A stretch of 64,000 nucleotides of DNA from contig JAAZZQ010000022.1 in NCBI GenBank assembly GCA_014239155.1, positions 124,001-188,000 of the forward strand. The letters are read 5' to 3'. The DNA is from Lachnospiraceae bacterium (lineage in GTDB: Bacteria; Bacillota; Clostridia; Lachnospirales; Lachnospiraceae). Under the pieces are notes generated by a model, which was not told where the DNA came from, did not search any database, and saw only the letters and a list, made by a program, of their open reading frames with translations. The position numbers and the translations under genes are program-made. Below, piece after piece: positions 5,792 through 56,760 of this stretch. Numbering within the stretch: the first letter of the stretch is position 1; every line of letters starts with the position of its first letter.

Positions 5792-5877
5792 ATGCACATG
5801 GGCACCCAAAGGAATATTGTCAGCAAGCTGACGGGTGCTCAGCGCACGAGTAGGAAAGAAAACTTTCCTACTCGATT
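5792..5877. repeat. Modular two-hairpin element, copy 1
   Basis: It begins exactly where the terminator T-run ends (ATGCACATGGG). Hairpin 1: GCACCC (5802-5807) pairs with GGGTGC (5833-5838), the inner stem GTCAGC (5819-5824) pairs with GCTGAC (5827-5832), and 11 unpaired bases AAAGGAATATT (5808-5818) lie on the 5' side only. Hairpin 2: GAGTAGGAAAG (5848-5858) pairs perfectly with CTTTCCTACTC (5863-5873), then GATT. Related copies are at 13809, 39057, 56541 and a degraded one at 7836. Confidence 0.85.
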
Positions 5878-5907
5878 GTGAAGATTTGCACCTATAATAA
5901 AAATATC

Positions 5908-5966
5908 TTGACATATATATCGTATAATGATATATTAAGAATATGATATATCATTATACGATATAT
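5908..5966 (+). promoter_or_regulatory. padR promoter and 21-bp inverted-repeat operator
   Basis: TTGACA (5908-5913), a 17-base spacer and TATATT (5931-5936) form a near-consensus SigA promoter. A perfect 21-base inverted repeat (arms 5915-5935 and 5946-5966, core ATATATCG/CGATATAT) overlaps the spacer and -10 region. This is the arrangement expected for negative autoregulation by the PadR protein encoded next; binding by PadR is an inference. Confidence 0.75.
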
Positions 5967-6020
5967 TGGCAACTGATATAAAAGCGAAGTTGAGCTGTGG
6001 AAGGAGGCAGAACTGACTTT

Positions 6021-6344
6021 ATGGCAGAGCGGGAGAATCCCTTGACGGAGGCAGTATACTATATTCTTTTAGCGCTTAGAAAACCCAATCATGGATATGG
6101 CATTATTCAAGAGGTAGAACAGTTGACTGGTGGGCGCGTGATACTAGGAGCAGGAACTTTGTATGGGGCGATACAGACTCTTTTAAAAAAGAAATGGATT
6201 GATATTTATAGTATTGACACAGAGTCCAGAAAAAAGAAGGAATATATGATTACAGATTTGGGAAGACAAGTCTTTGAGACAGAGCGACAGCGATTGGAAG
6301 AATTGCTAGAAAATGCAAAATTAATGCACATTGAGAAAAAATAA
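6021..6344 (+). CDS. PadR-family transcriptional regulator
   Basis: The ~107-residue protein is a short PadR-type winged helix: NPLTEAVYYILLALRKPNHG opens the domain, HGYGIIQEVEQLTGGRV and LGAGTLYGAIQTLLKKKWI are family signatures, and a C-terminal helix serves for dimerisation. PadR proteins repress a neighbouring transporter or membrane gene and respond to small molecules or envelope stress. The ATG at 6021 follows AAGGAGG by 13 bases; an upstream GTG at 5997 precedes that site and is not used here. The DUF2812 gene follows 15 bases later, a standard PadR/DUF2812 pair. Confidence 0.9.
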   Translation: MAERENPLTEAVYYILLALRKPNHGYGIIQEVEQLTGGRVILGAGTLYGAIQTLLKKKWIDIYSIDTESRKKKEYMITDLGRQVFETERQRLEELLENAKLMHIEKK

Positions 6345-6359
6345 GAAAGGAAATTAAAA

Positions 6360-7055
6360 ATGATTCGATTTCGTTTATATCTCGATAAAGATGCAAAGGA
6401 ACAGTGGTTAAATCAGATGGCGGCAGAGGGATGGGCAATGGAAACTTTTTTTGCGGGGATTTATCAATTTACTGCCTGTGAAAAAGGAGCGTATACCTAT
6501 CGTGTTGATTTTGGAGATAGATTATTTTCTGTTAGCAATGATTATCGAGAGTTAATGCAGGATGCAGGAATCCAGATAATACAGACATGGGGATATTGGG
6601 TGATATTGCGAAAAAAAGCGTCGGAGGGAGCATTTGCGCTCTATACAGATTTGGCTTCAAGTATTGAGCACTATCAAAAAATTCGCAGGATGTTTCGGGT
6701 TGTCACTATATTGGAAATGATTTGCTTGTTTGTAGAACTCTATGTTGGAGCCAAGGGAATTATGCTGGGCTATGGGTGTGCGCTTTTGATTGCAGCAATG
6801 TTGGTAGCAGTAGTCAATGCGGTGTTTCAGACAAACCGTAAGATTGCAGAACTAGAAGAGAAAATGACGGGGATTTCAACAAAACACAAAAATACATATG
6901 TGTCTGTCTTTTTGGCAGTTGGATTATTGATAAACAGTTGTGCTTTTTTGCTGATGGAATATATACCACATGCAGTGACAAGAGGGTTGCAGATTATAGC
7001 GATTGCATTCATGCTTGTTGGAGTGGCGAAAACCTGCACAAAAAGTTTGTTTTGA
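6360..7055 (+). CDS. DUF2812-domain membrane protein
   Basis: The 231-residue protein starts with a soluble DUF2812 domain (RLYLDKDAKEQWLNQMAAEG, then a tryptophan- and tyrosine-rich stretch to about residue 85) and continues with about four hydrophobic segments (roughly 115-160 and 178-228). DUF2812 proteins are regularly encoded next to PadR regulators in Firmicutes; their biochemical function is unknown. The 15-base gap and shared promoter at 5908 argue for cotranscription and control by the upstream regulator. A second partial match to the operator core (TGATATCGTATATT, about 7343-7356) lies before the next gene. Confidence 0.8.
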   Translation: MIRFRLYLDKDAKEQWLNQMAAEGWAMETFFAGIYQFTACEKGAYTYRVDFGDRLFSVSNDYRELMQDAGIQIIQTWGYWVILRKKASEGAFALYTDLASSIEHYQKIRRMFRVVTILEMICLFVELYVGAKGIMLGYGCALLIAAMLVAVVNAVFQTNRKIAELEEKMTGISTKHKNTYVSVFLAVGLLINSCAFLLMEYIPHAVTRGLQIIAIAFMLVGVAKTCTKSLF

Positions 7056-7127
7056 CAATAAGACAAAACAGCTACAATGATTTGCAGAGAAAATGGGTAT
7101 ACTGATTGTGTGGTTAAGAACTGTAAG

Positions 7128-54637: not shown

Positions 54638-55378
54638 ATGAGTGTTATTTCAATGAAGCAGTTGTTGGAAGCAGGTGTTCATTTTGGACATCTGACAAAA
54701 AGATGGAACCCTAAGATGGCTCCTTATATCTTTACAGAGAGAAATGGTATTTATATCATTGACCTGCAGAAATCCGTGGGCAAGGTTGATGAGGCGTATA
54801 GGGCTGTAGCTGATATTGTAGCACAGGGCGGCACAATTCTTTTTGTAGGAACCAAAAAACAGGCGCAGGATGCTGTCCGCACAGAGGCAGAGCGCTGTGG
54901 AATGTTCTATGTAAATGAGAGATGGCTGGGCGGTATGCTCACAAACTTTAAGACAATAAGAAGCAGAATTACCAGATTAAAGGCAATTGAAGATATGGCA
55001 GAGAACGGAACATTTGATGTTCTTCCAAAGAAAGAAGTTATTCAGATTAAGAAGGAATGGGAAAAGCTTGAGCGGAATCTGGGCGGTATTAAGAATATGA
55101 CAAGGGTTCCTGATGCAATTTTTGTTGTGGACCCGAAGAAGGAAAGAATCTGCGTGCAGGAGGCACATATACTTGGTATCCCTCTGATTGGTATTGCAGA
55201 TACAAACTGTGACCCAGAAGAGTTGGATTATGTTATTCCGGGCAATGATGATGCGATTAGAGCTGTTAAGTTAATTGTTTCTGCTATGGCTGATGCCGTA
55301 ATTGAGTCAAATCAGGGTGAGATGATGACAGATGCAGTGCCAGAAGAGGTTGTTGAGGAAGAGGCAGCGGCACAATAG
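54638..55378 (+). CDS. rpsB: 30S ribosomal protein S2
   Basis: The 246-residue protein is a complete S2: [70 protein letters not shown] and [18 protein letters not shown] residues [20 protein letters not shown]. The acidic C-terminal tail is normal for Firmicutes. The start follows ATGGAGG. tsf follows as usual, but here a palindromic element is inserted between them. Confidence 0.98.
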
Positions 55379-55383
55379 ATAGG

Positions 55384-55520
55384 AAACAGCTCAGGCAAGA
55401 CTTTGCACTGCCCTGCAAAGTCCGTGGGAAAGAATAGTGGTTGAGATGCATCAAGCCACAGTCCGTGGTTTTGCATGGTTTGATGCTTGTAACAGGAAGC
55501 CAAAGGCTGGACTGTTACAA
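55384..55520. repeat. Palindromic element, copy 2, between rpsB and tsf
   Basis: Blocks shared in order with 7128-7277: CTTTGCACTGC-CTGCAAA (about 55401-55418), AGATGCATCAAGCCA (55445-55459), GGTTTTGCATGG-TTGATGC (55467-55486) and imperfect ends AACAGCTCAG/CTGGACTGTT. It occupies most of the rpsB-tsf gap, normally short in Firmicutes. Confidence 0.75.
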
Positions 55521-55548
55521 AGATAGAGGAAGCAGGAGGAACGTGAAA

Positions 55549-56487
55549 ATGGCTATTACAGCAGCAATGGTAAAAGAGTTGAGAGAGATGACAGGTGCCG
55601 GTATGATGGATTGCAAGAAGGCACTTAATGAGACAGATGGAAATATGGATGAGGCTGTTGAGTATTTGAGAAAGAATGGACAGGCTAAGGCGGATAAGAA
55701 GGCTGGACGTATTGCAGCAGAGGGTCTTTGTAGAGTCTGTACAGATGGCGATCAGGCAGCAGCGGTAGTGGAAGTAAATTCAGAGACAGATTTTGTGGCA
55801 AAGAATGAGCAATTTCAGAATTATGTCACAGCAGTTGCAAAACAGGCACTTGAGACGAGTACTACAGATATTGATGCATTCCTTGCAGAACCGTGGAATG
55901 AGGATTCTTCAAAAACAGTGAAGGAAGCATTGGTTGAGAAGATTGCTGTTATTGGAGAGAACCTAACTATCAGAAGATTTGAGAAAGTTACAGCGGAGAA
56001 TGGCTGTGTTGTGACCTATACACATGGCGGCGGAAAGATTGGTGTCATTGTGGATGCTGAGACCGCAGTAGTAAATGATGCAGTGAAGGAAGCGCTTCTA
56101 AATCTGGCGATGCAAGTTGCGGCACTTTATCCAAAGTATGTATCTTCTGAGGAAGTTTCTGAAGAGTACAAGGAGCATGAGAGAGAGATTATCACAGAAC
56201 AGATTAAGAATGATCCGAAGATGGCTGGAAAGCCAGAGAAGGTAATCGAGGGTGCTGTTGTTGGTCGTCTTAACAAAGAGCTTAAAGAAATCTGCTTGTT
56301 AGAGCAGGTTTATGTGAAGGCTGAAGACGGAAAACAGACAGTGAAGCAGTATCTTGCTGAAGTTTCCGCAGATAATGACACAGAGATTAAGATTAAGAAA
56401 TTTATTCGTTTTGAGACCGGAGAAGGCATCGAGAAGAAAGTGGATGATTTTGCGGCTGAGGTTGCGGCACAAGCTGGAACTTTATAA
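55549..56487 (+). CDS. tsf: Elongation factor Ts
   Basis: The ~312-residue protein reloads EF-Tu with GTP. The N-terminal UBA-like domain is ITAAMVKELREMTGAGMMD, CKKALNETDGNMDEAVEYL; the core has VEVNSETDFVAKNEQF and YTHGGGKIGVIVDAE, and EQVYVKAEDGKQTVKQYL closes it. The ATG at 55549 follows AGGAGG by ten bases; a GTG at 55543 is possible but closer. Longer in-frame starts lie inside the palindromic element and are rejected. Confidence 0.97.
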   Translation: MAITAAMVKELREMTGAGMMDCKKALNETDGNMDEAVEYLRKNGQAKADKKAGRIAAEGLCRVCTDGDQAAAVVEVNSETDFVAKNEQFQNYVTAVAKQALETSTTDIDAFLAEPWNEDSSKTVKEALVEKIAVIGENLTIRRFEKVTAENGCVVTYTHGGGKIGVIVDAETAVVNDAVKEALLNLAMQVAALYPKYVSSEEVSEEYKEHEREIITEQIKNDPKMAGKPEKVIEGAVVGRLNKELKEICLLEQVYVKAEDGKQTVKQYLAEVSADNDTEIKIKKFIRFETGEGIEKKVDDFAAEVAAQAGTL

Positions 56488-56540
56488 GGATTCCATAAAT
56501 TGATCTGTCGCTATGAAAATTGATTCATGTTTATTATGAG

Positions 56541-56760
56541 TTGAGCAGCGAGTAGGGAAGAGAGACTTCCCTACTCTATTTTTTATGCACAGACCTGTGT
56601 AGAGGAAATATGCCACTAACGTGGCGCACAGGTCGCGCAGCAAGTAGAGGAAAAATTTTTCTGCTACTCAATTGCGCACAAGCATCCAGATGAAATATGC
56701 CAGCAAGCTGATGGAGGTCCAACGCATAAGTAGGGAAGCCTTTCTTCCTTACTCAATTTG
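56541..56760. repeat. Modular hairpin array, copy 4 (three plus two units)
   Basis: An array: GAGTAGG hairpin a (GAGTAGGGAAG 56550-56560 with CTTCCCTACTC 56566-56576, then a T-run, acting as tsf terminator); bulged hairpin a (GACCTGTGT 56592-56600, bulge AGAGGAAATAT 56601-56611, GCCAC/GTGGC, GCACAGGTC 56626-56634); GAGTAGG-type hairpin b (56643-56669); bulged hairpin b (GCATCC, bulge AGATGAAATAT 56688-56698, GCCAGC/GCTGAT); GAGTAGG-type hairpin c (56728-56754). It separates convergent tsf and rpiR-family genes. Confidence 0.85.
56550..56588 (+). terminator. tsf terminator
   Basis: The first hairpin of the array (56550-56576, 11 perfect pairs) is followed by TATTTTTTAT and lies 63 bases after the tsf stop. 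Confidence 0.8.

Follow-up and report, generated by a model that had tools for sequence, protein, structure and literature searches.

Short two-hairpin mobile elements behind terminators in Lachnospiraceae, probably related to class IIC-type group II introns

Class C group II introns insert directly behind terminators (PMC8919778, PMC4424553), and bacterial group II introns without an open reading frame (ORF) are described as rare, non-autonomous and presumably served in trans by the protein of a relative (PMC4424553). Short group II derivatives that lack domain V (DV) are described from Euglena chloroplasts, whose group III introns measure ~90-120 nt, sometimes hold only domain I (DI) and domain VI (DVI) motifs without DV, and are thought to depend on trans-acting factors (PMC4424553). 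Here we analysed a 64,000-nt stretch of a Lachnospiraceae bacterium (the window, G000:C61:124001-188000, from the 4.57-Mb draft genome G000 in 89 contigs), in which a preliminary description had pointed out a family of bulged-hairpin elements placed after terminators. We find that this element, an ~86-nt two-hairpin unit that we call the mini-element, is mobile, and that it is probably a miniature element, unable to move by itself, that either descends from class IIC-type group II introns or parasitises them.

The mini-element starts at the edge of a T-run (TTTTA/T-GCRCA, the slash marking the edge) and ends in GAT(T). Hairpin 1 has a 9-bp stem, a purine-rich bulge of ~11 nt on the 5' side and a 5-bp inner stem, and is joined by the linker GCGCG to hairpin 2 (GAGTAGGG..CCCTACTC). 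The units fall into subfamilies A (TGGGCACCC..GGGTGCCCA) and B (GACCTGTGC..GCACAGGTC), between which the two stems of hairpin 1 change in sequence but remain paired, and A/B chimeras were also found, for example at window position 39058 and in locus L030. GCRCA forms the 5' start in most first copies (84-93% per position), which were told apart from tandem copies by a letter pattern, and most of the 29 loci printed from other genera have a GGAA-like purine core in the bulge. In addition, the 5' TGCRC forms a weak helix with the GCGCG linker, 89% paired in a set of 64 copies taken one or two per locus from other genomes; one of its pairs has 28 of 62 cells unpaired, by reading often A against C.

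Direct evidence for mobility came from pairs of closely related genomes. Between G015 and G018, which are 97.5% identical over 5286 aligned bases, 15 loci were queried and the flanks of 12 were found in the other genome: four were shared (one broken off by an N run), three were clean empty sites, one held another variant at the same T-run, and four were without the element and had changed flanks. Four further pairs of top loci were shared. At the three clean sites the unit is present or absent precisely, through either gain or precise loss, with intact flanks and no target-site duplication (TSD). Thus GGTCTATTTTAT and AAATGCAGC enclose GCACA..CTCGATT in the filled site L275 and the empty site L445 reads GGTCTTTTTTAT followed directly by AAATGCAGC; filled L285, with TTCCTGTTAT before the unit and AGATATG after it, corresponds to empty L433 (TTCCTATTAT joined to AGATATG); and filled L280, between TTTTTATTAT and AATGTCGC, corresponds to empty L443 (TTTTTATTAT joined to ATTGTCGC). 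Because one T is ambiguous at these edges, the unit may equally be TGCACA..CTCGAT. The window's own genome was also compared with G016, the identity being 99.5-99.8% across four aligned blocks that span ~150 kb. At 5792 the own genome has one unit and G016 has two in tandem, a difference of exactly 86 nt that could be a gain or a loss between repeats, whereas seven further element loci are filled in both genomes. The earlier suggestion of a targeted mobile repeat is correct, as shown by filled and empty sites in near-identical genomes, by targeting of terminators far above control, and by the absence of a TSD. Separately, at G000:C61:97730 and 137808 (window 13809) the elements of G000 and G016 differ at several places between nearly identical flanks, which suggests gene conversion between copies.

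As to the target, a hairpin of -10 kcal/mol or lower precedes 163 of 220 first copies, compared to 34 of 400 control TTTAT sites from the same loci, and 159/215 when a stricter first-copy pattern drops five copies. With a threshold of -6 kcal/mol combined with five or more T in nine, the counts were 165/220 and 75/400, respectively, and TTTTTAT precedes 93 of the 220 first copies (32/60, 33/90 and 28/70). In the window, by sequence reading, four copies (5792, 7836, 13809 and 39057) start where a terminator T-run ends, as the preliminary description had stated. All 12 element loci examined on contig C61 follow a plus-strand gene, although this adds little because 182 of the 207 ORFs there are on the plus strand. 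Among 14 hand-picked tandem pairs, the terminator-proximal unit scores higher in 11 (p 0.03).

A search for reverse transcriptases (RTs) in the genus brought group II introns to light; 30 intron loci were taken, and intron numbers are lower bounds. Seven loci (L448, L449, L450, L455, L465, L474 and L475) carry a DV like GAACCGCCG..CGGTGGTGTGAGAGG with at most four mismatches, and Rfam confirms group II for all seven, while L471, an intron remnant sharing their 3' end, was not recognised as group II by Rfam. In L448, L449, L450 and L455 the intron ORF encodes a group II RT/maturase (TIGR04416, 404-431 bits) whose only Pfam domains at E<=0.001 are RVT_1 and GIIM; the absence of an endonuclease domain is as expected for class C, and from this, their size and their landing site we infer that these introns belong to class IIC. 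The 5' flanks of introns L448, L449 and L450 are T-rich: each of the three starts behind a T-run, with GTATGACGGGC as its first letters (edge by reading), and sequence reading also places a hairpin ahead of it. In L449, the 1856-nt intron lies exactly between TTTTTTTA and TGCGCAGACC.. (TGCGCA..), the 5' edge of a mini-element.

Group II introns have a DVI with a bulged A and a 3' terminus AY. All eight intron ends, the L471 remnant included, read CCTACTCGATT or differ at one place, and the introns share the mini-element terminus CCTACTCGAT(T); the Rfam boundary agrees, with the RF00029 match finishing at L448:2286. With at most one mismatch, the intron 3' end is fitted by 57/64 mini-elements in set A2 and by 43/74 in set A4, which derives from 59 chosen own-genome loci, as well as by 89/102 in set A3, which is biased in that its loci were picked by the hairpin-2 pattern (100 of 117 loci scanned). 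The chance that a given 11-mer fits at a fixed place with at most one mismatch is 8e-6. Intron DVI reads GAG-A-GG..CC-TA-CTC and mini-element hairpin 2 reads GAG-TA-GG..CC-TA-CTC, one extra T leaving the branch region of the latter fully paired, with no bulged A. The bulge also resembles GAGGAAAG of intron DI, a likeness set aside as no more than suggestive because the Rfam model has a conserved GAAAG of its own. The view that no named family fits the element holds for Rfam, where neither the whole window (gathering score) nor six element loci (E<=5) yielded a fitting family (none of the four weak matches in the six loci coincides with a unit on its strand), but it missed the link to class IIC-type group II introns through a common landing site and 3' end.

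Insertion at the same site, an identical tail, the absence of duplication and arrays that grow at the insertion edge make class C machinery acting in trans the simplest account. Structure, exact-edge differences in presence, target, lack of a TSD, and a 3' end and landing site in common with the introns are all observed, and from them we infer trans-mobilisation by the intron machinery. The mini-elements would then be either stripped-down introns or parasites with an acquired intron end. We also lean, with less assurance, towards a more specific version, in which they are DV-less mini group II introns that are widespread in Lachnospiraceae, relate to class IIC introns as short interspersed nuclear elements (SINEs) do to their helpers, form a bacterial counterpart of group III introns, use the purine bulge as an exon-binding site and reverse-splice in trans behind terminators. 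In either version, the element would retain a structured 5' part (hairpin 1 with its purine-rich bulge) and a DVI-like last hairpin with the intron 3' terminus and, having neither an ORF nor DV, would need DV to act in trans. A IIC intron ribonucleoprotein acting in trans would place an RNA copy immediately after an intrinsic terminator (TTTTA/T), the bulge presumably pairing with the T-run, and this RNA would then be copied into DNA. Later insertions would enter the same T-run edge, giving rise to tandem arrays with the newest unit first.

Several observations weigh against this account. No group II RT was found in the window's own genome, where the sole RT gene found (L467; RVT_1, 353 aa) has no group II Rfam match, is closest to retron RT models below their cut-offs, and adjoins a methyltransferase-like ORF. 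Likewise, no RVT_1 match was found in G012, G015 and G033 despite 25, 40 and at least 72 element matches, and copy number does not follow the introns, with G001, G008 and G020 containing such introns and 3, 2 and 1 matches. Multi-copy introns are often lost from draft genomes, and introns may have been lost or left unassembled in the RT-free genomes; as a conjecture, loss of a master element after amplification, or in the draft assembly, would explain the missing RT. Group II introns have a GUGYG-like 5' start, and mini-elements begin with GCRCA, compared to GUAUG in L448-L450. DV was not detected in the element: Rfam reported no group II intron across the window (gathering score) or in the six loci (E<=5), nor in the longer 5' variants of L407, L323, L337 and L332 (E<=2). 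None of the tools used assigns an intron class. Finally, several of nine other group II ends printed in the genus carry CCTACTC or a similar arm and none continues with GATT; because the CCTACTC-like arm also occurs in other group II introns, the specific shared part (GATT) is short. Given the missing RT, the copy numbers, the first letters and the lack of DV, we do not class the element as a group II intron, but regard it as behaving like a non-autonomous derivative of one.

We additionally examined how the hairpins vary between copies. In the 64 copies from other genomes, 96.0% of cells pair and both partners vary in 25 of the 29 pairs; none of 500 shuffles reaches any of five measures and no slid register comes near, in an alignment fitted to the covariance model, which favours pairing. 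In 26 units from the own genome, both partners vary in 15 of the 24 pairs (1/500 shuffles as high). For four measures at most one of 500 shuffles did as well, whereas the fifth, further pair types, was not beyond shuffles (65/500). Both sets bear out the earlier statement that stem sequences are exchanged with pairing kept. Summed over three sets, G-U and A-C cells number 90 and 85 in the outer stem of hairpin 1, 31 and 21 in its inner stem, and 162 and 46 in hairpin 2, where G-U prevails. Since the outer stem shows no preference for G-U over A-C, resident copies look near-neutral there.

This pattern bears on the idea that the element is a host regulatory RNA or 3' untranslated region element kept by selection at each site. 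Strong covariation across the family and the G-U excess in hairpin 2 would fit such a role; however, near-identical genomes do not carry the same set of copies, decay of the outer stem in hairpin 1 shows no G-U bias, many copies are broken, chimeric or tandem, and the element is located behind the terminator of the upstream transcript. We consider this explanation very unlikely, and the selected RNA proposed in the preliminary description is not upheld for individual resident sites, where imperfect outer-stem pairs lack the bias even though the family covaries. A DNA-level origin deserves somewhat more weight. The element could be a miniature inverted-repeat transposable element or a site-specific cassette of an unknown recombinase, similar to the bcr repeats, with its DVI resemblance arising by convergence or capture. 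Repeats linked to TTTAT, whose mechanism is supposed to resemble site-specific recombination, are described for Bacillus (PMC6542083), and no driver gene of the mini-element was found. The chance calculated above for the terminal 11-mer, the landing site in common with the introns and the L449 insertion nevertheless make this rather unlikely.

It is likewise unlikely that a Y1 (HUH) transposase moves the mini-element as single-strand DNA and inserts it 3' of TTAT, in the manner of palindrome-associated transposable elements (PATEs) derived from IS200/IS605, or of repetitive extragenic palindromes (REPs). IS200/IS605 elements are characterised by the lack of a TSD, a fixed 5' motif and hairpin ends (PMC7290912), and the mini-element too has no TSD, a fixed motif 5' of the insertion and hairpins at both ends. 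Moreover, two of eight printed Y1 loci (L203 and L205; IS200-like) also lie directly behind an apparent terminator, and an element is found ~420 bases from the broken Y1 gene of L214. Yet no Y1 match was found in 16 of the 36 genus genomes, including G005, G006, G013, G015 and G035 with their 32 to 53 element matches; only two of 62 Y1/TnpB loci (L214 and L241) hold an element, the ends of the eight printed Y1 loci differ, and the intron-like 3' end is left unexplained. Y1/TnpB-like genes were also rejected as partners, having no link with copy number; G003 has 50 element matches and no TnpB-like match. PF07282 matches occur in 28 of 36 genus genomes, and the TnpB-like genes of L239 and L247 (~440-500 codons, with a similar neighbouring ORF at both loci) are perhaps domesticated.

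Within the window, the two-part structure ascribed to five loci stands for 5792, 13809, 39057 and 56541 and fails for 7836, a fragment without hairpin 2. The features, with the evidence for each, are as follows.

5768..5792, plus strand: intrinsic terminator of the upstream gene, its T-run ending at the element (sequence, fold)
5793..5876, plus strand: complete A-type unit TGCACA..CTCGAT, edges ambiguous by one T (sequence, model match, fold)
7811..7836, plus strand: terminator (sequence)
7837..7869, plus strand: degraded front fragment of a unit, without hairpin 2 (sequence, fold)
13757..13809, plus strand: terminator (sequence, fold)
13810..13895, plus strand: complete A-type unit, then an apparent short remnant of a second unit (sequence, model match, fold)
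39017..39057, plus strand: terminator (sequence)
39058..39096, plus strand: front of a truncated A-type unit (sequence)
39097..39180, plus strand: complete B-type unit, fused to the truncated A-type front (sequence, model match, fold)
56538..56579, plus strand: hairpin 2 only (unit without hairpin 1), then a T-run (sequence)
56586..56672, plus strand: B-type unit (sequence, model match, fold with z -4.1)
56673..56757, plus strand: degraded A-like unit, in tandem (sequence, model match)

Folding gave z -7.0 for the unit at 5793-5876 alone and -7.4 with its terminator, z -5.1 and -8.9, respectively, for that at 13810-13895, and z -4.2 for the fused pair at 39058-39180. The fragment at 7836 comes from a degraded hairpin 1 and covers no more than its first ~33 bases (z -1.6, 13/200 shuffles folding equally well). 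The stretch 56538-56757 forms an array in which a hairpin-2 remnant and T-run precede the B-type unit at 56586, followed by the degraded A-like unit. Two other repeats lie in the window. One at 7126-7277 is a second dispersed palindromic repeat of ~150 nt with the ends CAGTTCAG..CTGAACTG and many matches across the 15 genus genomes searched; the other, at 11415-11567, is ~150 nt long with inverted ends GTGTTTGAAAGA..TTTTTCAAACAC, and is present in G000 and G016 and missing from G022.

The preliminary description had looked to a covariance model for further copies in the genome and its relatives, and these are abundant. Using a model built from 26 own-genome units (E<=0.1), with genome-wide counts that are lower bounds, we obtained at least 147 matches in the own genome (150 of 1965 candidates scored), at least three of which are the opposite strand of another match. 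Matches occur in 34 of 36 genomes of the genus, own included, in 78 of 397 genomes and 70 of 334 genera of the family Lachnospiraceae, and in one of 24 genomes from other families of the order. A hairpin 2 pattern scan of named genomes found at least 117 stretches; among the 80 titles listed, most are Lachnospiraceae or genera such as Hungatella, Oribacterium, Roseburia and Lachnotalea, and a few come from other groups such as Christensenellaceae and Anaerolineaceae. A phage collection searched with one unit gave no match. Among viral contigs, hairpin 2 occurs in five stretches, one of them a full unit: L501:8080-8167, on an IMG/VR phage contig, is a complete mini-element between regulator-like and terminase-like ORFs (named by reading). 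Own-genome copies are diverged, with a median nearest-neighbour identity of 0.85, in keeping with a largely dormant population, and several matches of equal score within each of G063, G357 and G454 suggest recent spread, judged by scores rather than sequences. We did not find this repeat described in the literature searched, most subscription journals lying outside that search.

Structural variants were also observed. Units in L485, L492 and L497 carry an additional hairpin (ATGTGAAAAC..GTTTTCACAT or near) inside the hairpin 1 bulge, and L313, L326, L343, L361, L399, L411 and L413 contain the hairpin 2 palindrome (mostly AATCGAGTAGGG..CCCTACTCGATT) without hairpin 1. In L407, L323, L304, L332, L337 and L341, several of them behind a T-run, a longer branched 5' part is combined with the same hairpin 2, and these are possible intermediates between intron and mini-element. 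A T-box leader match (L407:6885-7178, 74.8 bits; gathering score 93) lies near the long variant in L407, which may sit behind the T-box terminator. No ORF-bearing autonomous version was seen among 20 weak G000 matches, the hairpin-2-only sites and the loci read.

An abundant bacterial family of this kind, still variable in presence among near-identical genomes, would make directly testable the step from a self-sufficient ribozyme to a minimal trans-served intron, a step that is assumed for the origin of spliceosomal introns and parallels the pairing of SINEs with long interspersed nuclear elements. If the relationship to introns is true, many folded repeats that stand without annotation after terminators in a major gut family would be accounted for as well.

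Among known short repeats, the mini-element resembles the bcr1-type repeats of Bacillus cereus, as far as these are described in PMC6542083, in its many short copies, TTTAT motif and mobility, and pneumococcal BOX, as far as described in PMC3049150, in its modular folded repeats and tandem modules; bcr1-type repeats belong to another host group, BOX has other modules and another host, and both were compared by description. With REPs and their REP-associated tyrosine transposases (RAYTs), and with the IS200/IS605 PATEs, it has in common folded ends, the lack of a TSD and motif-directed insertion, but differs in that many element-rich genomes have no Y1 gene found and the loci read have no common ends. 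The likeness to group IIC introns lies in the site behind intrinsic terminators, the absence of a TSD, the terminus CCTACTCGAT(T) and the DVI-like last hairpin. Unlike these introns of ~1850 nt, however, the element is 86 nt long, lacks an ORF, DV and a catalytic core, has a fully paired branch-point region in its DVI-like hairpin and starts with GCRCA. Like bacterial ORF-less group II introns it is non-autonomous and presumed to be served in trans, although the known ones were found by DV, which the mini-element does not have. Finally, it resembles the group III introns in length, in the DVI-like hairpin and in the absence of DV, hairpin 1 as a DI relic being only suggested; group III introns reside in chloroplast genes, whereas the mini-elements are mobile intergenic elements of bacteria, known from sequence alone.

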